Origin: Saprospiraceae bacterium
GTDB lineage: Bacteria; Bacteroidota; Bacteroidia; Chitinophagales; Saprospiraceae
Direction: 5' to 3'
Length of the DNA: 56,208 bases
Assembly (NCBI GenBank): GCA_027488135.1
Contig: JAIYCH010000066.1
Coordinates: 1-56,208, forward strand
Part shown: piece by piece, positions 22,354 to 52,934 of the stretch
Numbering within the stretch: the first letter of the stretch is position 1
Layout: each line of letters begins with the position of its first letter
Made by a program: the position numbers and the translations under genes
The notes under the pieces: generated by a model
Told to the model about the DNA's origin: nothing
What the model saw: only the letters and a program-made list of their open reading frames with translations
Database searches by the model: none

Positions 22354-24060
22354 TTATTTCCATACGGTGAATGACTTTTTTAAATGATTTATGTTATTCA
22401 TTTTGTCCCAACTCGTTACTTTAATTTCATATTTACCCTTTTTAAGATCAACGGGTAAATATCCGGAAATGATACCGCTTTTGCTATCAGAACGCATTCT
22501 AATCCATTGTCCATTCAACGTAACTTTAAAAAAGGGATAATCCATTCGCTCCGGCAAATCTACGTTATCTGAAAGATGAAACTGTAAGACTCCCTTTTTT
22601 CCCCTTCCCGCTAATGATAAATCTTTGATAGCAGGAGGTATGGTATCGATCATAATTGAAAACTCTCCGAACTGATTGACCTGTCCCTCAAGAAAATTTT
22701 TCCTCCATTTACCCCCATAATTAATATACTTTCCCTGTTGATTACAACCTGAAATAAATGCCTTTTCTCTTAAGTAATCAGGCATAATCCCTGAACGAAT
22801 GGACAAAAAAATGTCATTATGTAAAGGTTCCTTATCATTATGAACCGAGTGAATTCTTGAAAAAGTCTCTATTCGCCTTTCATTTATCTCGCGATACATA
22901 AAAGGAATATTTTGATAAACTGCTCCTTTAGGAATAATTACCTCTATAAAATAGGTCTTTAACTGGTTATCAACATTTCTATACACATACTTATTATGTA
23001 AAGGGAGAGAGGGTAAATAACCTTTTATGCCTCTAATAGCTATTCTTTTCCGACTATAATTTCCAGCATAATCTAAAGCTTCTACTTCTATATTAGTTAT
23101 TTTACCATATTTCACATTGAAATATCCATCATTTTGAAGATGTTTAAAAGACTTAAGATTATTTCCCGGAAGCCGGTAACACCTATAAAAAATATCCTTT
23201 GATAACTTATTTTCTTTATAATCAATCATAGCATTGGCATATTTAGACTCCTCCAAGGCTATCTTGCCAGCTAAAAAATGAAAATGAAGTTTTCCATCTA
23301 CGTACATTTTTAACTGATAAACTCCATTTCTATTATTGTTTCCCTCCATGCCATCAAAAACCTGGACAGCTAAAGCAGATTTGCCAATTAATAAATCCAA
23401 TGTATCTACTTTAAAATATTCATTTTTATTAAGCTTAACAAATTTTTCACTTCTGGAAACCCTGTTTTCATCAACGTTAATCAGTTTTAATGCGGTCCAT
23501 TCAGGTGCAGAACAATCCTTTACATTTACACTAAAAAATAAAGGATTAACCAGTTTATTGTGTTTTAAATCACGAATTTCATAATGAAGATGTGGACCGA
23601 ATGAGAAACCAGTATTACCAATTTCACCTATTTTATCCCCTTTTTTAACCAGAATTTCATCCTTCTTGAAGTAAACAGAAAAATTCGACTTCTTATATTT
23701 TTTAGCTTCTTTATAATAGTGTTCTTCGAATGGAGTGTTAAAGACAGATAAGTGGCCGTAAACAGACATATATCCATTTTTATGTTTAATGTAAATAACA
23801 TTACCATACCCCGTTCCCTTTGATTCCAATTTGTGAAGAAATCCATCTTCCACTGCATAAACGGGTGTTCCCACAACTCCTTTTATATCTATTCCACCGT
23901 GAAAATGATCTGAACGTAATTCTGCGAATGTCCCTGAAAGAGAAACAGGAATTTTTACAGGTTGACCAAGTTTTGTTAAAGAAAACAAGGCCATAAAACT
24001 TAAAGCATAAAAATTAATGATTAAAATAGTTCTCCCAGGAACCAATATAAGTTTCCTCAA
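22354..24060 (-). CDS. M23 family metallopeptidase, secreted
   Basis: 568 residues counted from a TTG at 24060, which overlaps the end of aat by 47 bases; no ATG gives a full signal peptide (the first downstream ATG would leave a very short one), so the start is uncertain. LytM/M23 domain at about residues 45-165 with zinc-ligand motifs SDHFHGGIDIKG and GPHLHYEIRD, and VYGHLSVF. The remaining 400 residues are beta-rich, Ig-like (for example IPPAIKDLSLAG), ending in KKSFTVW. It probably cleaves peptide crosslinks in the periplasm. The long C-terminal region is characteristic of Bacteroidota homologues. Confidence 0.82.
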   Translation of the reverse strand: MRKLILVPGRTILIINFYALSFMALFSLTKLGQPVKIPVSLSGTFAELRSDHFHGGIDIKGVVGTPVYAVEDGFLHKLESKGTGYGNVIYIKHKNGYMSVYGHLSVFNTPFEEHYYKEAKKYKKSNFSVYFKKDEILVKKGDKIGEIGNTGFSFGPHLHYEIRDLKHNKLVNPLFFSVNVKDCSAPEWTALKLINVDENRVSRSEKFVKLNKNEYFKVDTLDLLIGKSALAVQVFDGMEGNNNRNGVYQLKMYVDGKLHFHFLAGKIALEESKYANAMIDYKENKLSKDIFYRCYRLPGNNLKSFKHLQNDGYFNVKYGKITNIEVEALDYAGNYSRKRIAIRGIKGYLPSLPLHNKYVYRNVDNQLKTYFIEVIIPKGAVYQNIPFMYREINERRIETFSRIHSVHNDKEPLHNDIFLSIRSGIMPDYLREKAFISGCNQQGKYINYGGKWRKNFLEGQVNQFGEFSIMIDTIPPAIKDLSLAGRGKKGVLQFHLSDNVDLPERMDYPFFKVTLNGQWIRMRSDSKSGIISGYLPVDLKKGKYEIKVTSWDKMNNINHLKKSFTVWK

Positions 24061-24700
24061 TGTTATTATGGTTTAGAATATCAATAAAATCCTTTCTTTT
24101 TATGGCATTAGCGCCCAAACTTTCTAAATGTTTTGTTTCTTGTTGACAATCGATAAGAAGGAACCCCTTTTGTTTTAATTGATTTACTAAGGAAATAAAC
24201 CCAAATTTTGAAGCATTCGAAACCTTAGCAAACATAGACTCACCAAAAAACACCTTTCCCAAAGAAATACCATATAGGCCACCAACCAATTCATTGCCCA
24301 TCCAGACTTCAACAGAATGTGCATAACCCTTTTTATGCAATTGAATATAAGCTGCCAACATTTTATTGGTAATCCACGTTCCTAGCTGATCTTCTCTATC
24401 AATTTTTTGACAATTTTTAATAACGTCCTCAAAATTTTGGTCCCAGGTAACCTTGAATTTATTTTGATTAAAATAAGGTCGCATACTTTTTGAAACAATT
24501 AAATTTTCAGGAAAAAGGACAAACCTAGGATCAGGTGACCACCATAAAATAGGACTTTTGTCAGAAGAATACCAAGGAAAAATTCCTTTACTATATGCCA
24601 ATATAAGGCGTTCCGCTGATAAATCTCCGCCCATAGCAACTATGCCCTCTTCTGTACTTTCTTCCACATCAGGAAACCATAAATCTGTTTTTAACATCAT
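24014..24700 (-). CDS. aat: Leucyl/phenylalanyl-tRNA--protein transferase
   Basis: 228 residues (two adjacent ATG codons at 24700 and 24697). N-end-rule enzyme adding Leu/Phe to proteins with N-terminal Lys or Arg. Family signatures: GIVAMGGDLSAERLILAYS, GIFPWY, WWSPDPRFVLFPE, YIQLHKKGYAHSVEVW and GGLYGISLGKVFFGESMF. Full length. Just upstream of its start lies the first copy of the TTTTCCACA-bearing repeat of the AT-rich region. Confidence 0.95.
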   Translation of the reverse strand: MMLKTDLWFPDVEESTEEGIVAMGGDLSAERLILAYSKGIFPWYSSDKSPILWWSPDPRFVLFPENLIVSKSMRPYFNQNKFKVTWDQNFEDVIKNCQKIDREDQLGTWITNKMLAAYIQLHKKGYAHSVEVWMGNELVGGLYGISLGKVFFGESMFAKVSNASKFGFISLVNQLKQKGFLLIDCQQETKHLESLGANAIKRKDFIDILNHNNIEETYIGSWENYFNH

Positions 24701-24712
24701 TTTTATTAAATT

Positions 24713-24739
24713 TCGTTTTCCACATTGTTATTAACATTT
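24713..24739. repeat. 27-bp direct repeat, copy 1
   Basis: Starts TCGTTTTCCACATTGTT and ends TTAACATTT. It matches 25320-25346 in 26 of 27 positions (A versus G at position 18). It contains one TTTTCCACA box and lies just upstream of aat. Confidence 0.85.
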
Positions 24740-25319
24740 TTAAAAAAAATTAAAGAACGCTTAACAGCTATATTCTTCAACCTTTGACAAGAAAAAGTAG
24801 AAGAAATTACTATTATATATACCAATATATCACAATTTATAAATTTAGATATAAACATTTTGCCGCAAGTTTAAAATTTATTAACATAATTACCAACAAG
24901 AAATTTTTCTTTCAAACATTTTATTTTGTAAAATATTTTAAAAAAAATAATTTATAAAATTATGAATATCAATAAATTAAAAAAATAAATTAGAAATGTT
25001 ATTTTTATATATTTTATAATTCACTTAAAATAAAACACTTAGAAATTGCTCATAAATTGGAAAAGCCTCAAAAAATTAAAACAATTTATTAATAATCGCT
25101 GGGGATTAATCATAAAATTAAAAACCTGTTTTTAACATATCAATAAGATAATAAAATATAATTTTAATGCCATAAAAATGCTAACAAATAAATTAAAACA
25201 TGTGGAAAACATGTGGAAAATGATAACTGCTTGTTTACATTGCCCATAACCAAAAGAAACGATAACGACTTTAATAAAATCGTTTAAAAATTTAAATAAA
25301 TGACAATTATTTTATAAAA

Positions 25320-25346
25320 TCGTTTTCCACATTGTTGTTAACATTT
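25320..25346. repeat. 27-bp direct repeat, copy 2
   Basis: Second copy of the repeat at 24713-24739, in the same orientation and immediately after the stop of the heme A synthase gene. The two copies bracket the AT-rich origin candidate. This copy contains the palindrome GTTAAC. Confidence 0.85.
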
Positions 25347-25351
25347 AATCT

Positions 25352-26422
25352 TTATAACTTCTTAGTTTGAGCGGAAAATAACATTACCAACATAGTAGTT
25401 AGTAACAATAAAGCTACAGCCTGATGTGCTACACCAAGGTTAACTGGTATATGATAAATACTATTTTTTAAGGTAAAAATGCCTAATAATACCTGAGTTA
25501 TTAACAAACTCGCCAATACTACTAACCATAGCTTGTAGGAAGCGATGTCCACCCTTTTCCAATAGAATAATATAAAAGATAAAATACTGAAAGACAATAT
25601 ATAAGCCACATTTCTATGCAGAAATTGTATCCACGCACTGAAGTATGGATTTTTATCATAATCTATAAAATTATCTATCTTAAAAGAGCCTTTTTCAACC
25701 ATTACATCAGGTATATACTGTCCATTCATATCAGGCCAGGTTGGATAAAACAAAGCCGCTTTTGAACCCGAAACGATACCCCCTAAAATGATTTGAAAAG
25801 CCAATAAAAAGAGTAAACATTTTGTCCACAACCTAATGTTTAGAATGTTGGTAACATGTGGAAAACTTTTAAAAGTCAATAAAAACGTCCATAGTAAATA
25901 AGAAAACAGGACTAAAGCTAAGGAAAGATGTAAAGTCAGTTTGTAGGCATTTACCCATGGACGCTCAATAAGTCCGCTCGCCACCATGATCCAGCCAAAG
26001 GATGCAACCGTCGCCGCAAGAAGAACCACAATTCCCAGTCTTTTAAAAAGAAAAGAATCTATCCATCCCTTTCGTAAAAAATAGAGAAAAGGTAAAATGA
26101 AAACGAAACCCATAGTTCTTGCCCATAATCTGTGGAAATACTCCCAGAAATAAATGAACTTGAAATCTTTCATTTCCATTCCCTCATTTATTTTTTTGTA
26201 TTGTGGTGTTTCCTTATATTCCGCAAATGCCGCATCCCAGGTAGCCTCATCCATGGGGGGTAAAGTTCCTGTGACTATTTCCCATTTGGTGATCGAAAGA
26301 CCCGATCCAGTTAAACGGGTTATGCCTCCTATAACCACTTGAAAAAAAATCATTACTAATCCTAAGCCAAGCCATAAGGTAATAATCTTGGGATAATTTC
26401 CAACCAAGCTTTCTTTGCTCAT
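25352..26422 (-). CDS. ctaA: Heme A synthase (COX15/CtaA)
   Basis: About 356 residues from the ATG at 26422. An in-frame ATG at 26458 is rejected because a Bacteroidota -7 box (26442-26435) lies between the two. Eight membrane segments. The four heme-binding His are visible in FWEYFHRLWARTMG, KLTLHLSLALV, FLHRNVAYIL and GVAHQAVALLLL. It oxidises the C8 methyl of heme O to make heme A for cytochrome oxidase. No other oxidase gene is nearby. Its 3' end abuts the origin candidate, and the coding region itself contains DnaA-box-like 9-mers (25822-25830, 25857-25865, 26131-26139). Confidence 0.93.
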   Translation of the reverse strand: MSKESLVGNYPKIITLWLGLGLVMIFFQVVIGGITRLTGSGLSITKWEIVTGTLPPMDEATWDAAFAEYKETPQYKKINEGMEMKDFKFIYFWEYFHRLWARTMGFVFILPFLYFLRKGWIDSFLFKRLGIVVLLAATVASFGWIMVASGLIERPWVNAYKLTLHLSLALVLFSYLLWTFLLTFKSFPHVTNILNIRLWTKCLLFLLAFQIILGGIVSGSKAALFYPTWPDMNGQYIPDVMVEKGSFKIDNFIDYDKNPYFSAWIQFLHRNVAYILSFSILSFILFYWKRVDIASYKLWLVVLASLLITQVLLGIFTLKNSIYHIPVNLGVAHQAVALLLLTTMLVMLFSAQTKKL

Positions 26423-26434
26423 ATTTTTTTTCTG

Positions 26435-26442
26435 CAAAAGTA
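26435..26442 (-). promoter_or_regulatory. -7 element TACTTTTG of ctaA
   Basis: On the minus strand the text reads TACTTTTGCAG, a perfect TAnnTTTG box, 12 bases before the ATG at 26422. This fixes the ctaA start. The -33 region is weak. Confidence 0.6.
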
Positions 26443-26458
26443 CATTCTTTTTGAGCAT

Positions 26459-26907
26459 TTGTAAATGAAGGTATTCAGTGATTATTATTGTTATTATTTT
26501 TCTTTTAAAAAAAAATCATACTCATCATTACCCATGTTGGTATGTTGGTAATAACAATGTTATACAAATATTTTTTTTTATAATCCAACGTTTTCAACCT
26601 TTCTATACAGTTGTTTTTATATACTCTTATTGATTTTTGTTTATTTATTAACATTACTGTATATCCATACTGTTTATTTCTTTTTACTTTTAATCGCTGT
26701 TAAGCTATCTATTTTTTATGTTGGGCTAGTTAGTAAATTGGTTGATTCATTGTGGAGAGATTGGGTGATCCTTGTTATTTGAATGAGCTATGTTTATAAG
26801 CCACACTTTCTCCCCAGTATTTTAGTGTTTTTTGTGGAGAAATAAAGAATAACTATTATTGTTAATCAGTATTTTATACATGTTATTAAATTTAATGTTT
26901 GTAAATT
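26459..26907. other. AT-rich intergenic region, second half of the origin candidate
   Basis: No coding sequence. It divides the minus-strand ctaA from the plus-strand SRAP gene. Contains TGTGGAGAG (26751-26759) and TGTGGAGAA (26833-26841), degenerate relatives of the TGTGGAAAA box, and T-rich stretches. From about 26,640 the + strand is noticeably richer in G than C. No promoter with a perfect -7 box was found for the SRAP gene. Confidence 0.5.
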
Positions 26908-27585
26908 ATGTGTGGAAGGTACTCTTTTAATGTAAAAAAGGACGTTTTGAAGGTTCAACTGCCAGGCGTTTCTCTTCCTGATGATTGGATTGAAAATTTA
27001 AATATTTGTCCAACGGAGAAGGCTTTAACTATTCATAAGATAGATACTATGGCATTATCTTTTATGCAATGGGGTTTTCAACAGAAAAAAAAAAAAAAAA
27101 AGGATTTACCACTATATATAAATGCCCGTTCTGAAACTATTTTTGAAAAAATAAACTTCAAAGGATCTATAATAAATAGAAGATGTATTATACCTGCTGA
27201 TAGTTTTTACGAATGGAAGACCTATGGTAAATCAAAAATACCTTATAGAATCTTGCCTTCTAAAGATCCTGTTTTGTTTATGGCAGGAATATGGCAGACT
27301 TTTGAATCTAGTAATAATACCTTTTCTTCTTTTGTTATTGTTACCACTGAATCAAATGAGGATATTGCCTTTTTGCACAACAGAATGCCTGTGATATTGG
27401 AAACTGAGGATAAGCGGGAAAACTGGCTTTCTGATGGTGCATCAAAAGTGGAATTAGTGAAAATTATGGTTCCTTCTCCCTCTACTTATCTAACGAGTTA
27501 TCCAGTAGCTCCTCTTGTTAATAAAATAAGAGTGAAAAATGGTGCTCTTCATGACAAAGGACATTCACCCTTAACTTTATTCTAA
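26908..27585 (+). CDS. SRAP domain protein (YedK/HMCES-like)
   Basis: 225 residues. SOS response-associated peptidase fold that crosslinks to abasic sites in single-stranded DNA: the catalytic Cys2 is exposed after Met removal (MCGRYSF), the active-site Asn/Arg are in YINARSETI, Glu in CIIPADSFYEWK, and His in FLHNRMPVIL. The family usually has about 220 residues. A run of 17 A at 27085-27101 encodes six Lys (residues 60-65) between MQWGFQQ and DLPL, where relatives have a Trp- and Pro-containing loop. It is the first + gene to the right of the origin candidate. Confidence 0.92.
   Translation: MCGRYSFNVKKDVLKVQLPGVSLPDDWIENLNICPTEKALTIHKIDTMALSFMQWGFQQKKKKKKDLPLYINARSETIFEKINFKGSIINRRCIIPADSFYEWKTYGKSKIPYRILPSKDPVLFMAGIWQTFESSNNTFSSFVIVTTESNEDIAFLHNRMPVILETEDKRENWLSDGASKVELVKIMVPSPSTYLTSYPVAPLVNKIRVKNGALHDKGHSPLTLF
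27085..27101 (+). repeat. Homopolymer A17 inside the SRAP gene
   Basis: Seventeen consecutive A followed by GG. The frame is intact at this length. Such a run is prone to polymerase slippage in replication and transcription, and to sequencing error. Confidence 0.9.
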
Positions 27586-42619: not shown

Positions 42620-43768
42620 TTAATTGTTTTTATTAGAAAATGTTGTGAAATTTTTACCGTTGTAACGGCTTAACCCTAAATATTTTGTTCCAAACCACAA
42701 GTTTCCATCTTTATCTTTTAATACATTCATAACAGCATTATTTACAAGTCCATCTTTTGTATTAAAATTTTTAAAGTTTTTACCGTCATAATACCAAACA
42801 CCACTATCAAAAGTAGTAATCCAAAAATGATTCTTTTCATCTTGAATCATGGCGGTTGCTCCTCGAGCATTAAAGCCTTCATTTTTACTAATGCTTTTGA
42901 ATGTTTTACCATCGTATCTACAAATTCCATGGTCTCTGGTTGCGAACCAGATATTTCCCAAATGATCTTCTGTCATAGAAAAAATCATATCATCGTTAAT
43001 ATAATCTTGCGCAGACCTTAAATCATTAGTCAGGCTATTATTCAAAATGTTTTGAATATTGCTTATTCCGGTCTTGTCTTGGTTAGTTATATAGTAATTC
43101 GCAGAAGGAATATAATTTTTAAATTCTTTTCCGTCGTATTTCCACACACCACCGCGATTCCAGGAACTAAACCATAAATTGCCATTTCTGTCTTGCAGAA
43201 TATCGAGAATAAACTGATGGTAGTTTCCAAGATTAAATTTAGGTTCGTTACCGTTTAAAAAATTATCCAATGATTTTCCGTTATAGCGGTAAATCCCATG
43301 ATTTCTAGTCCCGAGCCACAAGTTGCCATCTTTATCTTCCAGCATACAAGTAATAAATAAGGTATCTGGGATAAGATATTTTGAAAATTTATTACCATGA
43401 TATATACATATTCCTTTATTTGTTCCGAATAGAATATTCCCAGATCTGTCTTGAACAATGGAACTTATATGATTGGAGCACAGGCCGTTTTTTTCATTAA
43501 AGTTGGTAAATGTTTTCCTGTCATAACGGTACGCTCCTTCTCCGTTTATACTGAACCACAAATTGCCCTCTTTATCAAGGAGTTGACATACCACAACTTC
43601 GCTTGAAGTCTTGTTTTTCAGAACTATTTGAAGTGGTTGTTCAGATTTATTGACTGAATTTTCTTCTGTTATGTTTTTGTTTATTAAAGTCTGTCCGTTA
43701 CAGGAGATTAAAAATATGGGGACCAATAGCGCGATGAAGAGGCAATGTTTAAATTCCAACGTTTTCAT
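42620..43768 (-). CDS. Reg_prop seven-repeat propeller lipoprotein 1
   Basis: 382 residues. Signal peptide with lipobox (FLISC), then seven repeats of the two-component regulator propeller type (Reg_prop), each near (D/E)DxxGNLWFGTxxxGxxRYDGKxFxxF, for example DKEGNLWFSINGEGAYRYD and DKDGNLWLGTRNHGIYRYNG. Seven repeats fit one seven-bladed propeller. In hybrid two-component sensors the extracellular part has about fourteen repeats plus Y_Y_Y and a kinase; none of that output is present. One of four paralogues in the region. A TACATTTTG element upstream may be its -7 box. Confidence 0.88.
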   Translation of the reverse strand: MKTLEFKHCLFIALLVPIFLISCNGQTLINKNITEENSVNKSEQPLQIVLKNKTSSEVVVCQLLDKEGNLWFSINGEGAYRYDRKTFTNFNEKNGLCSNHISSIVQDRSGNILFGTNKGICIYHGNKFSKYLIPDTLFITCMLEDKDGNLWLGTRNHGIYRYNGKSLDNFLNGNEPKFNLGNYHQFILDILQDRNGNLWFSSWNRGGVWKYDGKEFKNYIPSANYYITNQDKTGISNIQNILNNSLTNDLRSAQDYINDDMIFSMTEDHLGNIWFATRDHGICRYDGKTFKSISKNEGFNARGATAMIQDEKNHFWITTFDSGVWYYDGKNFKNFNTKDGLVNNAVMNVLKDKDGNLWFGTKYLGLSRYNGKNFTTFSNKNN

Positions 43769-43847
43769 TTTTTTTCTTTGTTAAATGGAATGAACCTTAA
43801 ATTAAGTTTGCAAAATGTAAACATTTAATTAAAATTGTAGAATTAGA

Positions 43848-44088
43848 TTGCTCGTCAGGAAAATAATTTTAAATTACATTGACAAATATCCAACGGCAAA
43901 AACTTAATTTCAATGAACTCAAACCAGTTTATGGAAATGCAAGCATCGTAAACGACGAAAAAGTTGTTTACAATATTAAAGGTAATGATTTTCGATTGGT
44001 AGCTTTAATAAACTTTTCACAAATAGCTTGCTATTTCATTTGGTTTGTTAAACACAAAGAATATAATAAGATTAATGTCAAAACGAGG
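43848..44088 (+). pseudogene. HigB-type toxin remnant
   Basis: The N-terminal HigB pattern NYIDKYPTAKT is encoded in one frame up to 43904. After that the next frame encodes NFNELKPVYGNASIV, VVYNIKGNDFRLVALINFSQ and a HigB-like end HKEYNKIN. In intact HigB toxins about a dozen residues containing a Trp-Tyr segment separate these two parts. A deletion of roughly 37-40 bases with a frame change at 43904-43906 explains the break. The intact C-terminal frame then runs on into the WYL gene region. HigA antitoxin is not seen. Confidence 0.65.
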
Positions 44089-44992
44089 CTATATATCCAG
44101 ATACCTGCTTATTCTAAAAAAGTTAAAAGTAAAACCTTTTTCAACTTATGAGGAATTACAAGCCTATATTGAAAATCAATTTGACTATTTGCAAATGCAA
44201 GATGAAAATTTACAAATAGGTTTTTCAAAACGAACATTTCAACGTGATATAAAGGAAATCAGTAATGTTTTTGGCATTGACATTGAGTATTCAAAATCCC
44301 AAAAAGGTTATTTCATCAGCCAGAACGAAAATGAAAACATGAATTTTCAAAGGATGATGGAAGCATTTGATATGTTTAATTCTTTAAACCTTGCACATGA
44401 TTTAACCTCTTTTATTCATTTAGAAAAACGCAGACCTAAAGGAACGGAAAATTTATACGGATTGCTGCATGCCATCAAAAACAGATTTATTATTAAATTT
44501 AATTATCAGAAATTTTTGGACGAAGAATTAAGCTATCGTTTGGTAGAACCTTATGCTTTAAAGGAGTTTAAAAACCGTTGGTATATTATGGCTAAAGAAA
44601 CTACAGGCAATAATATCAAAAGTTTTGCTCTTGACCGTTTGACAAATCTTGAAATTACAAATCAAACATATCAGTATCCTGACAATTACAGTATTGAACA
44701 AAGCTACCGTTATTGCTTTGGAATTATAAGCCCGAATGACCATGAACCTCAGGACATCATTCTATCCTTTGACCCATTTCAAGGTAAATATATCAAAACA
44801 CTTCCATTACATGACACTCAACAAGTATTGGAGGACAACGACGAAGAAATGAGAATAAAACTTAAACTTTACCTGACACATGACCTGGTAATGGAACTAC
44901 TTTCTTTCGGTGACCACATGAAAGTTATAGAACCTAAATCATTGGCTGACCAGATTAAACAAGCACATGAAAAAGCATTTAGACAATATTAA
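44075..44992 (+). CDS. WYL-domain transcriptional regulator
   Basis: About 305 residues from the ATG at 44075 (frame open upstream to 44045). N-terminal winged HTH with FSKRTFQRDIKEISNVFGID, then a WYL ligand domain: GLLHAIKNRFIIKFNYQKF, YRLVEPYALKEFKNRWYIMA, and the C-terminal extension SFGDHMKVIEPKSLADQIK. WYL proteins sense nucleic acids or nucleotides and often control defence or repair genes. Its start overlaps the 3' end of the HigB remnant. It is the only intact plus-strand gene in the accessory region, convergent with the AAA ATPase gene. Confidence 0.88.
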   Translation: MSKRGYISRYLLILKKLKVKPFSTYEELQAYIENQFDYLQMQDENLQIGFSKRTFQRDIKEISNVFGIDIEYSKSQKGYFISQNENENMNFQRMMEAFDMFNSLNLAHDLTSFIHLEKRRPKGTENLYGLLHAIKNRFIIKFNYQKFLDEELSYRLVEPYALKEFKNRWYIMAKETTGNNIKSFALDRLTNLEITNQTYQYPDNYSIEQSYRYCFGIISPNDHEPQDIILSFDPFQGKYIKTLPLHDTQQVLEDNDEEMRIKLKLYLTHDLVMELLSFGDHMKVIEPKSLADQIKQAHEKAFRQY

Positions 44993-45047
44993 GGGCCATC
45001 TCACAGAGGAGTAAACATCTTTACAGTTCATGAATTCATTCATGTTC

Positions 45048-46742
45048 TCAATTAAAGCCAATTGATTTTTTTGAAAACTGATTAGTTAAAGTTTCCTCTT
45101 TACAAAATTCTAGAAGCGTATTTACATCTACTGCACTTCCATAAAGTATTTCATTGATTTCGTTTTTACGAACTATATTATCAATCTGTCCACCTGAAAA
45201 ATCAAACTTTGTAGCCAGTATTTCACAATCTTCATTTGATAAATGAGGCATTTTTAATTTCCATATTTTTATTTTAGCTGAAACGGCCGGCTTTTGAAAT
45301 TCAATTTTGAAAAGGAATCGTCTTTCAAATGCCGTATCCATATTGTTAACTAAGTTCGAAGTCGCTATTAAAATTCCTTCAAAGTTTTCCATTTCTTCAA
45401 GCAAAATATTCTGTATGCGATTTTCAGTATCACTTGTATTCGAAGAATTTGCCTCTTTACGTTTAGCGATTATAGCATCAGCTTCATTGAAAAATAAAAT
45501 AGGCGCAAGTGTTTGCGACTTCGCATAAGATTTGTAGTCCTTAAAAACTTGTTTAATAATTTTTTCACTTTCTCCAAACCACATTGAACGTGAAGCGCTA
45601 ATATCAATTTTCATTATTTCACGATTTGTAGCTTTAGCTATTTGTAAAACACTTTCTGTTTTTCCAGTGCCAGATGCACCATATAACAATGCTGTAACGC
45701 CTTTGGGTAAGGATTTTTGTACCAGGCGTTCTTGTGTTTTTTTGAAATTCTCTTCTAATAAGAGATTTTTCAATAACGCTAATTGATTTGCTTCCTTTTC
45801 ACTGAAAATTAATTCACGAAAGGGGAGGTCTTGGGGTTGAATTACGTTCTCTTTTTTCTTTTTGTCTACATCTTTTTTGAATAGTTTAATATCACACTCC
45901 GTTAATAAGTCTAAAGCTTTTTCAGTGAGCTGCATTCTGGCATCATCAAAAAATGCTGCATCTACGATTTCTAACAAATCTTCCTTAACCAGATTATTTT
46001 CCTTAGCTAAAAATCTTTGTATTTGAGTAAATCTTTCCTTTGGCTTGTCATAAATCTCTTTGAAACTTCTTTCAATCCAAGGATCTCTGTCCCCTTCAAG
46101 AAATTTCCATACTACGTATAAAAACAAATATTTTTCTTCCATCGATGTTCCTAAGAACCTGGCTTTTTCAATAAGCGGAAAATGTCTATTTTCTTCCAAC
46201 AAGCATTGAGTTTGCTCAAATAATTCAAATGTTGAAATTTCTTCATTGTCTCTTTGATTACCTATTTCATTTATTTTTTCCAGTAAAGTAAAAATATCTT
46301 CATACTTTATGGCATCAACTAAGACATCAGGAATTGGTTCGCTTTTTAATATTTTTTCAGAAACGATTTGATTAATATAAAACTCTTCATCTGCACCTTT
46401 AAGATTTATGCTTCTATGTCGATTACTTTTATTATTTTTCCGTAGCAAACGCTTATTGTACAAATCAACAAAGTCATCACTGAATTCAAGTAGTTTCATT
46501 GGGTTACAATCAAAATGAGAATTCAAGTCATCTAAATCAACTTTCCGACCTTTGTAGTTTAAGGTAAAAATAACAGCAACAAAAAGGGCTTGTGTTTGTG
46601 TAATATGGAAGTATTCAGCTAGAAAGGAAAGTTCTTTTTTGGTTTGCTCAAAAAAGGAATTGTTTAGTTTACTATCTTCTGATAAGTTAAATACTAATGT
46701 AATGTTGTCCAGTATTTCTTGTTTTAATGTTGTGTTTGCCAT
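45048..46742 (-). CDS. AAA family ATPase with N-terminal helical domain
   Basis: 564 residues from the ATG at 46742 (a further in-frame ATG at 46778). The first ~310 residues are helical, without recognised motifs. A C-terminal AAA domain (about 330-540) has Walker A LLYGASGTGKTESVLQIAKA, Walker B PILFFNEADAIIAKR, sensor LIATSNLVNNMDTAFERRFL with arginine finger Arg-Arg. The Walker B has Asn instead of the usual Asp. This AAA group occurs in Bacteroidota mobile and accessory regions; function unknown. Neighbour of Fic and WYL genes on the same island. Confidence 0.8.
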   Translation of the reverse strand: MANTTLKQEILDNITLVFNLSEDSKLNNSFFEQTKKELSFLAEYFHITQTQALFVAVIFTLNYKGRKVDLDDLNSHFDCNPMKLLEFSDDFVDLYNKRLLRKNNKSNRHRSINLKGADEEFYINQIVSEKILKSEPIPDVLVDAIKYEDIFTLLEKINEIGNQRDNEEISTFELFEQTQCLLEENRHFPLIEKARFLGTSMEEKYLFLYVVWKFLEGDRDPWIERSFKEIYDKPKERFTQIQRFLAKENNLVKEDLLEIVDAAFFDDARMQLTEKALDLLTECDIKLFKKDVDKKKKENVIQPQDLPFRELIFSEKEANQLALLKNLLLEENFKKTQERLVQKSLPKGVTALLYGASGTGKTESVLQIAKATNREIMKIDISASRSMWFGESEKIIKQVFKDYKSYAKSQTLAPILFFNEADAIIAKRKEANSSNTSDTENRIQNILLEEMENFEGILIATSNLVNNMDTAFERRFLFKIEFQKPAVSAKIKIWKLKMPHLSNEDCEILATKFDFSGGQIDNIVRKNEINEILYGSAVDVNTLLEFCKEETLTNQFSKKSIGFN

Positions 46743-46896
46743 ATTTGCATATTGATAAGTTTGATAATTTTTATACAAAACTATTTAGGTAGAACGCCAA
46801 GATGTGTCGCTATGAAAATTTCTTTTGTATGGAGACAACTTCTGTGCTCTTCGAGCTGCACGAAAGATTAGCAATTATTGCCAATGGTTAATCCAG

Positions 46897-47994
46897 TTAA
46901 AAATCTACCAGTTCGTAATTTACATTTCGTCCGCCTTCGCCAGTCTGTTTTAAAATTCCTTTTTCTACTAAGTCTTTAATATCCCGTAAGGCAGTATCTG
47001 ACGATGATTTATTGATTTTCGCCCATTTGGAACTTTGTAATTTTCCTTCAAAGTTTTCAAATAACAGATTCAATACTTTTCTTTGTCTTTCGTTTATGGT
47101 CGTTTTTTCATGCAATTTCCAGAATTCTGCTTTTCTTAAAATTTGTTGAGTAGTCTTTTCTGTTGCAAGCATTGCATTTTTAAAACAATGTAGAAACCAT
47201 TTGAGCCATTCTGTAATATCGTTTGAACAGTGTTGCACTTTTTGTAAAACATCATAATACTGTTTTCGCTCTTCCAGTATTTGGCTGGACATACTATAAA
47301 AGCGTTCTCTACTTCCTTCAGAACGTGCCAGTAGCATATCTGAAACGGCACGTCCAATACGACCATTTCCGTCGTCAAAGGGATGAATAATGATAAACCA
47401 AAAATGGGCTATTGCAGCTTTTAGAACCGGATCCAGGGAATTATCGTTATTGAACCAGTGTAAGAACTTCTCCATTTCCGAAGGAACAAACGCAGGCTTT
47501 ATCGCTTCAAAATGTACTTTTTCTTTATCCATCGCACCTGAAACTACTTGCATTTCACCTGTTCGATAACATCCAACCTCAATTTTATATGGTCCGCTAA
47601 ATCCAGTAGGGAAAAGAGCTGCGTGCCAGCCAAATAAACGTTTTTCTGTTAGAGGTAAATCAAATCGTTGTGTTGCATCCAGCGTCATTTCTACAATTCC
47701 TTCAATATGGCGGCTACTTTTGACAAGGCCTGCTGAATTAATACCCAATCGTCTGGCAACGGAAGAACGTACTTGTTCATAGTTGAGCAACTCGCCCTCT
47801 ATTTCAGAAGATTTTACAACATCGAGTGTTAAAGCATTAAGAGTGGCTTCTTCTTTTGCAAAGAACCCTAATGCATTCATCTGCCCAATGATTTTACCTT
47901 GCATCCATCGTACCTCTCCGAAAATTGAATGAATGAGAGCGTTTTCCCAGGTAAAATCAGTCCAATTTTTATATTCGTAGATATATTTTGCCAT
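46897..47994 (-). CDS. Fic-domain AMP-transferase, self-inhibited (class II)
   Basis: 365 residues. N-terminal DUF4172-like region with the inhibitory helix VKSSEIEGELLNYEQVRSS (SxxxEG), the Fic core with HPFDDGNGRIGRAVSD at about residues 200-215 (catalytic His, complete HxFxDGNGRxxR), and a C-terminal winged HTH (INERQRKVLNLLFENFEGKL). Class II Fic proteins transfer AMP to target proteins and are kept inactive by the Glu of the SxxxEG helix. All key residues are intact. It may act as a toxin or regulator; no separate antitoxin is needed. Confidence 0.92.
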   Translation of the reverse strand: MAKYIYEYKNWTDFTWENALIHSIFGEVRWMQGKIIGQMNALGFFAKEEATLNALTLDVVKSSEIEGELLNYEQVRSSVARRLGINSAGLVKSSRHIEGIVEMTLDATQRFDLPLTEKRLFGWHAALFPTGFSGPYKIEVGCYRTGEMQVVSGAMDKEKVHFEAIKPAFVPSEMEKFLHWFNNDNSLDPVLKAAIAHFWFIIIHPFDDGNGRIGRAVSDMLLARSEGSRERFYSMSSQILEERKQYYDVLQKVQHCSNDITEWLKWFLHCFKNAMLATEKTTQQILRKAEFWKLHEKTTINERQRKVLNLLFENFEGKLQSSKWAKINKSSSDTALRDIKDLVEKGILKQTGEGGRNVNYELVDF

Positions 47995-48031
47995 AGATTG
48001 AATGCTTTGCGGTAAATATATAAAATAAACG

Positions 48032-48045
48032 CCGCATAATTGCGG
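48032..48045. repeat. Hairpin CCGCA-TAAT-TGCGG
   Basis: A GC-rich 5-bp palindrome with a TAAT loop in the gap between Fic (start 47994) and the second propeller gene. It may terminate the upstream minus-strand transcript coming from 48118. Confidence 0.4.
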
Positions 48046-48117
48046 TGAATAATCTAACTTTTCTCCGTAAGGTTAAAATACAATGTTTTCATTCTTAGCT
48101 ATTTGCCTTCGTATTTT

Positions 48118-49236
48118 TCAAAATTGCCTTTCAAAAGTCTTTCCGACAAACTTATAAACGCCACCTTCTGCCATTCCAAAAAGCAAATTATTATTATGGT
48201 CTTTATATATGGACCAAATCATAGGTGTAGAAAGTTTGTTATCAATAATATAGTTTGTCATTGAATTGCCATCATATTTCCAGGCTCCAGTATCTCTGTC
48301 TCCAAACCAAATATTTCCTTCCCTATCTTCTTCGATGGCAAATACGTGTTCAAGAGTGCCAGCTTTTGACTTATCTCCTCTTCTTGTACTTGTGGGATGA
48401 ATTAAATTATTCTTTTCAGAAAAATGAATGGTAACGTCTCCTTCCATGAGCAAAACCCCAATGCCATTATTTCCTATCCAAATCCGACCTTTTGAATCTG
48501 CTAATACACTTCTTATATGCAAATGCTCATTATATTTAAGGTTTAAATGTTCATGACTAAATATATTCACTATTTTCCCATCATAGTTGTAAAGGGCGGA
48601 ATAAGTTGCTATCCAAACCTTACCGTATTTATCTTTTGATATATCAGTGACACCATAAGAATTGTCAGGATTTTCATTTCTTGGTTGTGTGAAAATTAAA
48701 AAGTTAGCACCATACGAATTACCCGGATTTTCATTTTTTGGTTTTGGAAAAATTAAATAATGCATATTTTTTCCGTCAAAACGGTTAATTCCGCCTTCCT
48801 CGCCGGCATAAAACCATTCATCGCCATTTGTTTCATTCCATTCAAATATTGGATTGTTAGTTTGGGTTGAATAATTTGTAAACTTTTGCCCGTCATAAAT
48901 ACTTAATCCCTTTGCCGTGCCAATCAATATATTTCCATGTTTATCCTCTTGTATGGAGCGGATTTGGTTGTCCAATAAACCATCTTTTGTTGTAAGATAT
49001 TTAAATGTATTTCCGTCATAACGACTTACACCTGCATTATGAATGCCAAACCAATAGTTGCTTTTACTATCCTGAAAGATAACACGTATTCCAGAACCAA
49101 ATTTTAAAGTATCGGTTTTTGAAACACTTTGTAATTCAGATGTACTATTTTCTTTCCCGGTTGATTTCTTTTCAACACATGACAAGTTGAGTATCAACAG
49201 GACTATTAAGTACATCAAATTAAAAAGTTTTTGCAT
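48118..49236 (-). CDS. Reg_prop seven-repeat propeller lipoprotein 2
   Basis: 372 residues with a lipobox (ILNLSC). Seven Reg_prop repeats (for example DSKSNYWFGIHNAGVSRYDG, DREGNIWFGDRDTGAWKYDG, NNNLLFGMAEGGVYKFVG). The third blade is divergent (NGDEWFYAGEEGGINRFDG) in the same way as in the adjacent paralogue, so genes 2 and 3 arose by tandem duplication. After that blade a 19-residue unit, (L)IFPKPKNENPGNSYG, is duplicated in tandem. No transmembrane or output domain. Eight bases separate it from the next propeller gene. Confidence 0.88.
   Translation of the reverse strand: MQKLFNLMYLIVLLILNLSCVEKKSTGKENSTSELQSVSKTDTLKFGSGIRVIFQDSKSNYWFGIHNAGVSRYDGNTFKYLTTKDGLLDNQIRSIQEDKHGNILIGTAKGLSIYDGQKFTNYSTQTNNPIFEWNETNGDEWFYAGEEGGINRFDGKNMHYLIFPKPKNENPGNSYGANFLIFTQPRNENPDNSYGVTDISKDKYGKVWIATYSALYNYDGKIVNIFSHEHLNLKYNEHLHIRSVLADSKGRIWIGNNGIGVLLMEGDVTIHFSEKNNLIHPTSTRRGDKSKAGTLEHVFAIEEDREGNIWFGDRDTGAWKYDGNSMTNYIIDNKLSTPMIWSIYKDHNNNLLFGMAEGGVYKFVGKTFERQF
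48651..48764 (-). repeat. 57-bp imperfect tandem duplication in propeller 2
   Basis: Two adjacent units of exactly 57 bases (48651-48707 and 48708-48764). Each begins with CACCATA and carries GGATTTTCATTT. They encode two 19-residue copies ending in ENP(G/D)NSYG. The frame is preserved. It adds a loop between two blades. Confidence 0.85.
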
Positions 49237-49244
49237 TTATGGAT

Positions 49245-50288
49245 TTATTTTACAAATTTTTCAAACGTATGACCATTAAATGTATAAACGCCTGCATTAT
49301 GCGTTCCAAGCCAAAGAACCCCTTTGTTGTCTTTATAAATGGTAAAAAGCAAAACATCAGTCTCACCATCTTTGACAGGGTAATGAATAAGTTCTTTTCC
49401 ATTGTACTTCCACACCCCGTTTTCATAAGTCGCCATCCATAGATTGCCCTTATTATCTTCGGTTATGGAGAGGAAAAAAGGAAATTCCATTTTATTGGTT
49501 TTGTTAAGGTAACCAATGCCACTCTCTTTTTTAAAGGTTACGGATTCATAGCCATCCGTTTCTATGACATAGCGAAAACGAGTATTATTTATCCAAAACT
49601 TACCATTTTTATCTTCAAAAATGGCACGTGTTCCAAAATCACCTCCATTTGGCGTTGTTTGTAATTGTTCTTCATAATGCCAGCTCAGGGCTCTGCCATC
49701 ATATCGACACACCCCTAAGCTGGCTGTTCCGAACCACATATATCCTTTACGATCTTTGTAGATGGTATAAAGTCCATAAGGTTTTAAGCTGGTATTTGGA
49801 TTTTTCATGTAAAACATATTTTCCTGGGGTGATGTTGGAAATTTTAAGTAGTGTAAATATTTCCCATCAAATCTGTAGGCTCCACTTTTTGTAGAACCCA
49901 TTCTGAACCATAAATCATCAGGTTTTAAAACCCAATCATTCAAAGGTGATGCCGGGTTAGCGATTTGCAATGTTTTAAACGTACGACCATCAAATTTACT
50001 AACCCCTTTTTCTGTATCAAAGTAAACATTCCCATTAGCATCTTCCTGAATACCTCGTATTTCATTGCTAACTAAGCCATTTTCGGTAGTTATATGTTTT
50101 AATCGTTGCCCATTGTAATAATATACCCCATTTTCTTTACTTCCGAACCAATAATTTGATTTCTTATCCTGATAAATAGTCCAGATTGTTTTATCAAGTT
50201 GAGTAACAGTTACACCGGTGTCTATACTATTACTTACAAAGAAACTTACCAGAAAAATGGTGAGTAGTGTCAATTTCATTTTATTCAT
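49245..50288 (-). CDS. Reg_prop seven-repeat propeller protein 3
   Basis: 347 residues. Signal peptide MKLTLLTIFLVSFFVSNSID (from the fourth codon); unlike its three paralogues there is no lipobox Cys, so it should be released into the periplasm or secreted. Seven Reg_prop repeats (DKKSNYWFGSKENGVYYYNG, DRKGYMWFGTASLGVCRYDG, DNKGVLWLGTHNAGVYTFNG). Closest to propeller 2, sharing the degenerate third blade (LHYLKFP versus MHYLIFP). Probably in one transcript with propeller 2. The function of single-domain Reg_prop proteins is unknown. Confidence 0.87.
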   Translation of the reverse strand: MNKMKLTLLTIFLVSFFVSNSIDTGVTVTQLDKTIWTIYQDKKSNYWFGSKENGVYYYNGQRLKHITTENGLVSNEIRGIQEDANGNVYFDTEKGVSKFDGRTFKTLQIANPASPLNDWVLKPDDLWFRMGSTKSGAYRFDGKYLHYLKFPTSPQENMFYMKNPNTSLKPYGLYTIYKDRKGYMWFGTASLGVCRYDGRALSWHYEEQLQTTPNGGDFGTRAIFEDKNGKFWINNTRFRYVIETDGYESVTFKKESGIGYLNKTNKMEFPFFLSITEDNKGNLWMATYENGVWKYNGKELIHYPVKDGETDVLLFTIYKDNKGVLWLGTHNAGVYTFNGHTFEKFVK

Positions 50289-50794
50289 TTTTCAATGGTA
50301 GTGTTTCAAAGGATTTGCTGTCTTACAATACAAATAACTATAGACTGTGGAAAAACTACGGCCCTTCAGTTCATAAATATAGTCATTAAATGGGTTAGGT
50401 CTTGGGCAAACTTTAAACGTTTTTTGGATGCATTTTTAGATTATCAGGGGCGGAGTGTTACGAAGATAGCTGTGGTATGTCCCTGAGCGTTTATAAGAAA
50501 TACATCTGCGAATAACATTATGCTTAAACAATAACGCTATCTAAAATCTGTGATTCATAACCGAGTGTTAGGGGTAAATTTCAACTATATAATCTATCGT
50601 AAAAAAGCTAATATCCAAGGGTATAATCTTGGAAAACTATCTATTTTATCCTTGACCATCATAAATGCCTATTTGGCCAATGTATAAAATACTATAAATA
50701 CAAGAGGCTATCTTTTTAGACAGCCTCTTGTGTTTTCAGGGTAGTGCAGGTATCACAATAAATTACTCATGCAAGAAATTTACTATGAAGAGAA
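50289..50794. other. Intergenic region of 506 bases
   Basis: No supportable gene. A possible degenerate GTTAGGGGTA (50567-50576) resembles the GTTAGTGGTA motif at 55415. The text is of mixed composition and its right end holds the terminator at 50700-50731. Probably the residue of a former gene or insertion; nothing identifiable remains. Confidence 0.4.
50700..50731 (-). terminator. Strong terminator hairpin after the SPFH gene
   Basis: ACAAGAGGCT and AGCCTCTTGT form a perfect 10-bp stem around a 12-base loop; two more pairs can form inside after one A/C mismatch. On the minus strand it lies 64 bases beyond the SPFH stop and is followed by AT-rich sequence, so it is a good intrinsic terminator for that gene. 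Confidence 0.7.
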
Positions 50795-51562
50795 TCATTC
50801 GATTAAAAACGGAACCTTACCATTCGTAATGATGATTTTACTATTATTGGTCTTAGATAACTCCAGAAAAGCTTCAATACTGCGTATTTTGATGATATTA
50901 TCTGTCAAACCTTCTGAAAGTATTTTTTGTGCGTCTTTAGTTCCTGTGGCTTCAATAATTTTTCTTTCAGCTTCTAATTTTTCCTGTTGTAGAATGAACT
51001 CCATTCTCATTGCATTTTGTTCTGCTTGTAATTTCTGTTCAATGGAACTTGCCAATCCGGCAGGCAATTGAATACTTTTCATTAATACAGAATTTACAAT
51101 AATTCCTTGTTGTTCAAGCGTTTCACTCATTTTTCCTTTAATCGCTGTTTCTATTTCTGCTCTCATACCAGAGTGCATGTCTTTAGCAAAGTACTTAGAA
51201 CAAACATCTGCCGATGCAGAGCGAAAGACGTTAGATATGATTGTTTCATATCCTTGACCCAGGTTTCGAATAACTTTAGGCACACTGTTTTCATCTACTC
51301 TGTAAAGAATAGAAATCTGTGCAACAATACTTAAGCCTTCTTTGCTGGGCAAACTCAAACTCAGCTCGATATTATTGATCTGTACATTCGTTCTGATCAC
51401 TTTAGTAACGATGGGGTTATACAGTACCGTGCCTTGTTTGTAAACACTTTCTGAAAGTTTACCAAGTTTTTGTTTTAGCCCAACTTCCCCTGGTCTGATA
51501 ATAGCACAGCTGGAGACTAGTAATGGGAATAATAAGAGGTAAAAAATTTTTGATGTTTTCAT
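50795..51562 (-). CDS. SPFH/prohibitin-family lipoprotein
   Basis: 255 residues. Signal peptide with lipobox (LLVSSC), then an SPFH/prohibitin domain (about 22-185): AIIRPGEVGLKQKLGKLSES, IELSLSLPSKEGLSIVAQIS, LYRVDENSVPKVIRNLGQGY, GIIVNSVLMKSIQLPAGLAS. It ends in a coiled segment (EQKLQAEQNAMRMEFILQQE). SPFH proteins oligomerise into rings at membranes; a lipid anchor instead of a transmembrane helix is less common and would put it on the periplasmic side. No NfeD partner gene is adjacent. Confidence 0.85.
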   Translation of the reverse strand: MKTSKIFYLLLFPLLVSSCAIIRPGEVGLKQKLGKLSESVYKQGTVLYNPIVTKVIRTNVQINNIELSLSLPSKEGLSIVAQISILYRVDENSVPKVIRNLGQGYETIISNVFRSASADVCSKYFAKDMHSGMRAEIETAIKGKMSETLEQQGIIVNSVLMKSIQLPAGLASSIEQKLQAEQNAMRMEFILQQEKLEAERKIIEATGTKDAQKILSEGLTDNIIKIRSIEAFLELSKTNNSKIIITNGKVPFLIE

Positions 51563-51869
51563 GATTTTATTTGGTTAAGATACCACCTCAATTTTAAGAT
51601 AGTATTACTATCAAAGTTACGGTATAATTTAGTCCAATGCAAGTGTAGTATCCTGACCTGGCACCTATTTTTATAGAAATGGTCTTTTTAGATTTAGGGT
51701 AAAAAATGAGACACAAAGAAAGCCGGCGACGGAAATGTATAAAGGAGGTTGGTTTAGAATTGTCTTTTTACATTGTCACTTACTGGTTTGTGGAACGGCA
51801 TATACTTACATTGTTATTCCCTCTGTCCAACTTGTACAAATCCAAATAATAAATACGTGTTCGTATTTA
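51563..51869. other. Intergenic region of 307 bases
   Basis: No supportable gene. A possible 47-codon open frame begins ATGAGACACAAAGAAAGC at 51702 on the + strand; it has no recognisable motif and is not called. The left end is probably the promoter region of the SPFH gene. Confidence 0.4.
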
Positions 51870-51875
51870 TTATTT
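51844..51875 (-). terminator. 14-bp perfect hairpin at the end of propeller 4
   Basis: AAATAATAAATACG and CGTATTTATTATTT flank the loop TGTT, an uninterrupted 14-bp stem. It overlaps the stop codon of the propeller 4 gene (51870-51872). It should stop minus-strand transcription, although no long T-run follows; it could also protect the mRNA 3' end. Confidence 0.65.
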
Positions 51876-52934
51876 CCAAGGTCCTTTTGTCGTTACGTTC
51901 ATAATTTCGTCCCTCTGATTAATTCTATATAATCCACCGGCTCCGCCCAACCAAAAATTTCCTTTTCTATCTTCCAGTATTCCCATGATTGAAATTGGAA
52001 TATCATAGTGCTTAAAGGCTACTCCATCGTATTTATATACTCCATTCTTTACGGTACCTATCCATATATTATCAGATTTGTCTCTATAGATTTTGTACAC
52101 ATCACCATCATTAAATCCTTTTATTTCTGGAAATGAAATAATCTCATTCCCTATTATTTTATTGATTCCACCCTTTCCAAACTGCTTTTTGGGGTCAATA
52201 TCATCTCTTTCAGCAACTCTGGTTCCGATCCAAACACTTCCATCTTTGTCAAATTCAATTTGGGTAACATTATTAGAGTGTAATCCATCTTTTTTCAGAA
52301 AATGAGTAAACGAATTTACATCATATTTACAAACGCCATAACCGTCTCTGAGAAACCAGATATTACCATTGGCATCTTCACTTATACCCATTATCCAATC
52401 CTTGGTATCTTCATTTATTTTGGTATCAACTTTTGGGTAAGGAACTGAAAAATGATGAAATGATTTTCCATCAAATTTATAGACACCATTCCAAGTACCA
52501 ACCCAAAAAACGTTCTTACTATCAATAAGTAAATTTGCAATCATATTGCTAATAAAGTCGTCTCCTACTAAAAAATTCGTAAAATTCTTACCATCATATT
52601 TTGTTAAACCCTCACCCGTATTTAACCAAAAGATACCGGTTGAATCCTCTTTTATGGCAGTTACTCTATCAGATGGTAACCCATCCTTTGTTGTAAAATA
52701 TTTTAATTTTTCACCATCATATCTTGCTATTCCATTTCCATTTGTTCCAAACCACAAATTTCCTCTGGAATCTTCGAATATGCTGGTTACATATTCTCCA
52801 ATTTGAGCTTCAATTTCTATGTTATCGGAATCTCTTTTTTTAATAGGGTTCACTTTCTTTTCCTGTGAGTTACAAGAAGTTGATAAAATCGATAAAATTA
52901 TTAATATAATCAGTTTAATTTTTTTTCTGTTCAA
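51870..52934 (-). CDS. Reg_prop seven-repeat propeller lipoprotein 4
   Basis: 354 residues with a TTG start at 52934; no in-frame ATG lies upstream before the hairpin. Signal peptide with lipobox (LSTSC). Seven Reg_prop repeats (DSRGNLWFGTNGNGIARYDG, DSKNVFWVGTWNGVYKFDG, DKSDNIWIGTVKNGVYKYDG, DRKGNFWLGGAGGLYRIN). The fifth blade contains a 15-residue insertion (AERDDIDPKKQFGKG). No output domain. Farther from the other three paralogues in sequence than genes 2 and 3 are from one another. Confidence 0.87.
   Translation of the reverse strand: MNRKKIKLIILIILSILSTSCNSQEKKVNPIKKRDSDNIEIEAQIGEYVTSIFEDSRGNLWFGTNGNGIARYDGEKLKYFTTKDGLPSDRVTAIKEDSTGIFWLNTGEGLTKYDGKNFTNFLVGDDFISNMIANLLIDSKNVFWVGTWNGVYKFDGKSFHHFSVPYPKVDTKINEDTKDWIMGISEDANGNIWFLRDGYGVCKYDVNSFTHFLKKDGLHSNNVTQIEFDKDGSVWIGTRVAERDDIDPKKQFGKGGINKIIGNEIISFPEIKGFNDGDVYKIYRDKSDNIWIGTVKNGVYKYDGVAFKHYDIPISIMGILEDRKGNFWLGGAGGLYRINQRDEIMNVTTKGPWK

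Follow-up and report, generated by a model that had tools for sequence, protein, structure and literature searches.

A very probable chromosomal replication origin around ctaA in a Saprospiraceae bacterium

Here, we examined a stretch of 56,208 nucleotides from a Saprospiraceae bacterium (the window, meaning the whole stretch that was analysed). Judged from its sequence, the locus at approximately 24.7-26.9 kb around ctaA is very probably the chromosomal oriC of this organism. It is a DnaA-type oriC and not a new system. This reading is drawn from the cluster of DnaA boxes, the conservation of these boxes and of a degenerate box pair, an AT-rich core, the flip of GC skew in the window and the ctaA-linked boxes found at the skew flips of two relatives (G067 and G062). 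The origin appears to reach into the coding sequence of ctaA and probably takes in the spacer between ctaA and the adjacent SRAP-domain protein gene; an element made of weaker boxes also belongs to it.

Boxes, AT-rich core and GC skew in the window

The features of the locus, in window coordinates, are as follows.

24014..24700, minus strand: aat, the left neighbour (PF03588)
24713..24739, plus strand: DnaA box TTTTCCACA at 24716-24724 followed by TTGTTATTAACATTT, together the left copy of a 27-bp repeat (exact match, repeat)
24878..24898, plus strand: degenerate pair TTATTAACA-TAA-TTACCAACA in the aat-ctaA spacer, counterpart of the element embedded in ctaA of relatives (element search)
24900..25199, no strand: candidate DNA-unwinding element, an extremely AT-rich core with a minimum of 5% GC per 100 bp
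25201..25220, minus strand: tandem DnaA boxes TTTTCCACA-TG-TTTTCCACA, with a 2-bp gap and starts 11 bp apart (exact match)
25320..25346, plus strand: DnaA box TTTTCCACA at 25323-25331 followed by TTGTTGTTAACATTT, together the right copy of the 27-bp repeat (exact match, repeat)
25352..26458, minus strand: ctaA (heme A synthase, COX15/CtaA), which hosts embedded boxes (PF02628, E 2.9e-88)
25857..25865, minus strand: DnaA box TTTTCCACA in ctaA, 502 bp from the ctaA 3' end (exact match)
26459..26907, no strand: spacer between ctaA and SRAP, holding degenerate sites (ACCAACA at 26535 and 26543; CTCTCCACA at 26751; TTCTCCACA at 26833)
26908..27585, plus strand: SRAP-domain protein gene, the right neighbour (PF02586)

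An exact word search places TTTTCCACA at 24716(+), 25201(-), 25212(-) and 25323(+) in the aat-ctaA spacer (24701-25351), and a fifth copy lies inside ctaA at 25857(-). The five boxes span 1.15 kb (24716-25865). A first-pass annotation, made from the letters alone, had described a very AT-rich non-coding stretch of some 650 bases with four exact boxes, two of them 11 bases apart; the spacer measures 651 bp at 19.0% GC, and all four positions, including the pair at 25201 and 25212, are correct. The 27-bp direct repeat said to bracket this stretch was also found, its two copies differing by one mismatch. Likewise, the further box reported in ctaA is the one at 25857, and the close variants in and after the gene were located at 25822 (TTGTCCACA), 26131 (ATTTCCACA), 26751 and 26833. 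However, single variants weigh little, because such words are common: 88 that differ from TTNTCCACA at no more than one base occur in the window, against 73.6 expected. The ctaA-SRAP spacer of the window holds zero exact copies of TTTTCCACA; relatives have boxes on this side of ctaA.

The window contains 9 copies of TTTTCCACA against 1.47 expected, a count reached by 0/100 shuffles. For the aat-ctaA spacer, local dinucleotide shuffles give a mean of 0.017 against the 4 observed, with at least 4 in 0/2000. Across the draft genome (156 contigs, 4,207,763 bases) the word occurs 110 times compared with 92 for the reversed-word control. Thus, it is hardly enriched genome-wide and its clustering at the locus is the unusual part. 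Among the 100 places listed out of 110, more than two boxes per 1.5 kb occur only at the ctaA locus; equal density elsewhere, which the first-pass annotation had named as counting against an origin, was not observed among them. Moreover, the tandem is the sole match in this genome to TTWTCCACAN{0,4}TTTTCCACA. At the 100-bp scale, GC content in the window is lowest in the spacer (5% GC, from 24918), and the 100-bp and 300-bp stretches of lowest GC in the window both lie within or overlap the candidate unwinding element. We rejected TGTTNNTAACA as a separate motif, with 56 occurrences genome-wide against 30 for the reversed control; all 6 strand matches in the window start within 24686-25846, and it reads better as a degenerate box plus its neighbours.

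By Pfam, the genes run in the order aat, ctaA, SRAP, dtd and a MazG-domain protein gene. The locus is not adjacent to dnaA, which sits on another contig (C61:239408), in keeping with the earlier suggestion of an origin away from that gene. The DnaA protein of this genome (protein of L052) is full-length and has DNA-binding domain IV (PF00308 and PF08299). gidB (rsmG), which in other bacteria often neighbours the origin, is found at 1399-2022, ~23 kb from the present locus. The SRAP gene contains a run of 17 A at 27085-27101, corresponding to a lysine stretch, and between 42620 and 52934 several minus-strand genes share, by eye, a recurring 'GNLWFGT'-like repeat.

Raw GC skew over the 56-kb window reaches its cumulative minimum at 26695, in the ctaA-SRAP spacer. 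We rejected raw skew alone as proof, as it tracks gene orientation past ~41 kb, where it turns negative again. Therefore, third codon positions were used, over 51/54 ORFs (leaving out the two left-edge ORFs and an antisense one); for the genome of the window itself, the skew analysis covers the 56-kb contig. To the left of ctaA, plus-strand skew at third positions is -0.126 for plus genes and -0.149 for minus genes, and it is -0.215 in ctaA itself. From ctaA to 41 kb it is +0.126 and +0.146, respectively. Past 41 kb, minus genes give +0.064 and one plus-strand gene gives -0.124, and the third-position curve is flat after 44 kb. Raw skew reverses over the stretch of the repeat-bearing genes (42620-52934), where the third-position skew of minus genes remains positive. 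By gene, G3<C3 holds in 19/22 genes to the left (plus 14/17, minus 5/5) and G3>C3 in 19/28 to the right (plus 10/14, minus 9/14). The contrast between left and right has a Fisher p of 2.6e-14. The cumulative minimum lies at 26252 and the best change point at the end of ctaA, with a contrast reached by 0/5000 gene-order shuffles.

The locus in the genus and the family

All five boxes are kept in 6/6 genus relatives, in two of them (G002 and G004) across a contig break, and the tandem at 25201-25220 is kept in 6/6. Across the 5 genus sequences covering the whole spacer, 58/59 columns of the strong boxes and degenerate pair are invariant compared with 399/592 in the rest of the spacer. Columns 24715-24739 are invariant throughout. 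The AT-rich core (201/300) is not above the remaining spacer, and in the ctaA-SRAP spacer 372/449 columns are invariant. The assemblies of G004 (L090, L054 = C60, C123) and G002 (L246, L058 = C51, C91) break within the AT-rich spacer, so that the origin lands at contig ends.

Beyond the genus, 65 genomes carrying the same family label in the collection searched were examined. A ctaA match was present in 56, and after weak partial matches in G033 and G069 were dropped, 54 loci remained. Counted over ctaA together with 800 bp beyond its 3' end and 900 bp beyond its 5' end, these loci (5/54 with flanks cut by contig ends) hold 178 TTWTCCACA boxes versus 2 for the reversed pattern. The boxes are unevenly spread, with at least three in 27 loci, at least two in 33, fewer than three in 27 and none in 9. 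For some genera, a different origin or different boxes must be assumed. Outside the family, 58 ctaA loci (the best 30 of 38 order-level matches together with 28 of 71 class-wide matching genomes) contain 6 boxes in 229 kb, at most one each, versus 3 for the control. Judged by box density within 1.5 kb, a link between ctaA and the origin was not found in these 58 loci, and the boxes thus belong to the locus in this family and not to ctaA generally. The largest number among the ctaA loci examined is in G028 (L147:4520-8168), with 26 TTWTCCACA boxes over ~3.7 kb, in ctaA itself and in both its flanks.

SRAP is near ctaA in 25/54 family loci, and either SRAP or dtd in 39/54. In the genus, aat is found at the origin, whereas in G037, G063 and G070 it has tandem boxes nearby. 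We rejected aat alone as a family marker, as it is near ctaA in 5/54 family loci and far from the origin in G067 and G062. The tandem pattern occurs in 32/118 genomes and is absent from 86/118, with 0 matches to the reversed control in all. It was also rejected as a diagnostic by itself, since of its 40 places 21 are at ctaA or in the genus spacer and 19 are away from ctaA. Tandems of the form TTWTCCACA-TTTTCCACA with no ctaA match in the stretch examined are found in the family relatives, at L144, L150, L152, L154, L155, L156, L158, L160 and L161.

Two relatives allow the skew to be followed over much longer distances. G067 is complete as a single contig of 7,507,556 bases, and its skew was taken from 40 sampled 20-kb windows. 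Coarse windows are negative in 6/6 cases at 0.1-2.1 Mb, positive in 10/10 at 2.5-5.7 Mb and negative in 3/4 at 6.1-7.3 Mb. Fine windows are negative in 9/11 cases at 2.12-2.34 Mb and positive in 8/8 at 2.36-2.54 Mb, placing the flip at 2.34-2.36 Mb. Seven boxes lie at 2,347,678-2,350,690, with ctaA at 2,347,732-2,348,757, and this is the only cluster seen in the fine-sampled interval. Two copies of TTATCCACA with starts 10 bp apart sit directly past the ctaA 3' end, more boxes follow in ctaA and beyond, and ctaA and SRAP flank boxes at the flip. The reading of the locus as oriC, first made from the letters of the window, is thus supported both by the third-position flip at ctaA and by this sampled flip at ctaA-linked boxes.

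For G062, the contig of 4,345,237 bases is one of two. Sampled skew is negative in 8/10 windows before 2.052 Mb and positive in 8/10 after, the windows meeting there giving -0.042 and +0.064, and 11 boxes occupy the ctaA-SRAP spacer at this flip. A second cluster of 9 TTWTCCACA boxes is found in L132:12974-13362 (~2.045 Mb), ~7 kb from the first, which suggests that the origin of G062 has two box clusters. Among contig-level family loci with ctaA, skew in the 6-kb flanks changes from minus to plus in 7/11 and does not in 4/11.

Clusters of DnaA boxes alone can mark datA- or DARS-like sites. The locus might then titrate or recycle DnaA close to the origin without being the origin itself, and the second cluster of G062 would fit such a site. 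We consider this very unlikely. The skew change point falls on the locus in the window and on ctaA-linked boxes in G067, the AT-rich core adjoins the tandem pair, and no other cluster of more than two boxes is seen in the genome among the 100 of 110 places listed. An alternative is that DnaA or another factor controls transcription of aat, ctaA or SRAP here without origin function. Boxes do lie upstream of aat, and relatives also have them in the interval from which ctaA and SRAP diverge. However, they are also found at the 3' end of ctaA and within its coding sequence, and regulation would leave the skew flip unexplained, making this account highly improbable. That the origin belongs to a plasmid, a chromid or an integrated element and not to the main chromosome is hardly credible, for although the contig of the window is short and its replicon not directly visible, the housekeeping genes gidB, nadK, aat and dtd (by Pfam) surround the locus, and ctaA and SRAP flank the boxes at the flip of a single 7.5-Mb contig in G067.

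A degenerate box pair and its place in ctaA

The chromosomal origin that we favour appears to contain a second element, TTATYAACATAMTTACCAACA, which consists of two degenerate boxes 12 bp apart and is found in ctaA of a number of relatives. There, within the coding sequence, it reads TTATCAACATACTTACCAACA on the antisense strand. The counterpart in the window is the spacer pair at 24878-24898, for which 21/21 columns are invariant in the 5 genus sequences. Both half-sites are kept in 7/7 aligned rows, L004 differing in the 3-bp spacer. Searching 118 genomes for the 21-bp element with up to 2 mismatches places 18/25 matches at the ctaA locus, including 6/6 of those with 0 or 1 mismatch; 10 of the 18 are within ctaA, 2 directly past its 3' end and 6 in the spacer of the genus. 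Allowing up to 3 mismatches gives 75 matches versus 26 for the reversed control, and therefore the matches with 3 mismatches are largely chance. The second half-site of G022 is itself a genuine TTATCCACA, suggesting that the half-sites are DnaA sites.

At the place of the element, TGTTG[GA]TAA is present in 20/53 family ctaA genes versus 0/54 outside, and the amino acids differ between these groups too. Conservation of synonymous codons in ctaA gives mixed peaks, several of which also occur outside the family. The claim of conservation at the DNA level therefore rests on the pattern counts. An embedded strong box on the plus strand is present in 15/53 family genes versus 0/54 outside, a comparison that cannot separate DNA from protein constraint because no outside gene encodes [VI]EN there.

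In G067, G043, G012 and G022, strong and degenerate sites recur in steps of about 170-175 bp, near -60/-50, +110, +283 and +457 relative to the ctaA 3' end, with G012 lacking the outer box of the pair. As these are homologous positions in one gene, the steps count as one instance. In a number of other genera, ctaA holds a box on the minus strand, roughly at +425 to +491. For the 25857 box of the window, the aligned codons carry a box in just 2/53 family genes and fall in a loop with indels. Box 25323 starts 29 bp from the end of ctaA, approximately the position of the ctaA-proximal tandem in other genera.

Part of the origin of the family thus seems to be written into ctaA. A more specific proposal, which we advance tentatively and with slightly more doubt than belief, is that the 21-bp degenerate tandem TTATYAACATAMTTACCAACA and strong boxes are kept in ctaA at the DNA level across genera, with a near-regular 170-175-bp spacing that starts at the tandem by the 3' end of ctaA, and that they shape the CtaA protein. 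In the genus of the window, the element would stand in the aat-ctaA spacer as a relocated origin module, the copy in ctaA having decayed.

Possible mechanism, known origins and meaning

We envisage that DnaA-ATP would bind the tandem at 25201-25220 cooperatively, then fill the adjacent strong and degenerate boxes and spread along one strand of the AT-rich core (~24.9-25.2 kb). The duplex would open and helicase would be loaded in both directions. The box inside ctaA and the sites in the ctaA-SRAP spacer may be flanking sites for DnaA, with a role in nucleating or timing the complex.

In one cyanobacterial study, TTTTCCACA boxes are given for oriC of Cyanothece ATCC 51142, Synechococcus PCC 7942 and Anabaena PCC 7120, a pair of boxes 2 nt apart in Cyanothece is functional with a geometry that favours DnaA binding, and TTATCAACA is listed as an imperfect box of the origin of a linear chromosome (PMC4674748). 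The present locus shares with these origins the exact box word, the 2-nt pair (as at 25201-25220) and AT-rich surroundings, and TTATCAACA also occurs in the second element of the family. In contrast, cyanobacterial origins usually lie beside dnaN, whereas here the neighbours are aat, ctaA and SRAP and boxes enter a coding gene. The first-pass annotation had called the box the cyanobacterial consensus; the word is indeed common to both, but the link to cyanobacteria is limited to that word.

The basal unwinding system (BUS) of Bacillus subtilis oriC also has tandem boxes, no more than 3 bp apart (2 bp here), beside an AT-rich stretch (PMC8287927). It differs in that DnaA-trios are not recognisable with confidence at our locus. 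Against the BUS criterion of at least 3 trios within 16 bp of a box, the tandem shows a run of 3 behind a 1-bp spacer, and 24716 and 25323 show runs of 3 and 4; such runs may also arise by chance in DNA this AT-rich, and they depend on the strand convention used. Predictions by Ori-Finder and in DoriC use like criteria, namely a skew minimum, a cluster of DnaA boxes and indicator genes, and the same source accepts DnaA-type oriCs distant from dnaA (PMC10225481). Ori-Finder 2022 scores intergenic sequences (PMC10225481), and boxes inside ctaA would therefore not count.

Among the titles and abstract openings listed from the literature on oriC of Bacteroidetes/Bacteroidota, Haliscomenobacter, Saprospira and Cytophaga hutchinsonii, on ctaA and on DoriC, none describes this origin. 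Predicted origins of family members may be present in DoriC. The embedding of origin elements in ctaA is possibly a new feature.

Taken together, the locus provides this lineage with a testable origin whose gene neighbourhood is defined: aat - origin - ctaA - SRAP - dtd - mazG within the genus, and ctaA-SRAP in many others. Its location helps to orient fragmented metagenome assemblies and to estimate growth rates from coverage. Moreover, the family offers a natural series of origins, from at least 20 boxes to few and overlapping a coding gene, in which the evolution of DnaA-site architecture under protein constraint can be followed.
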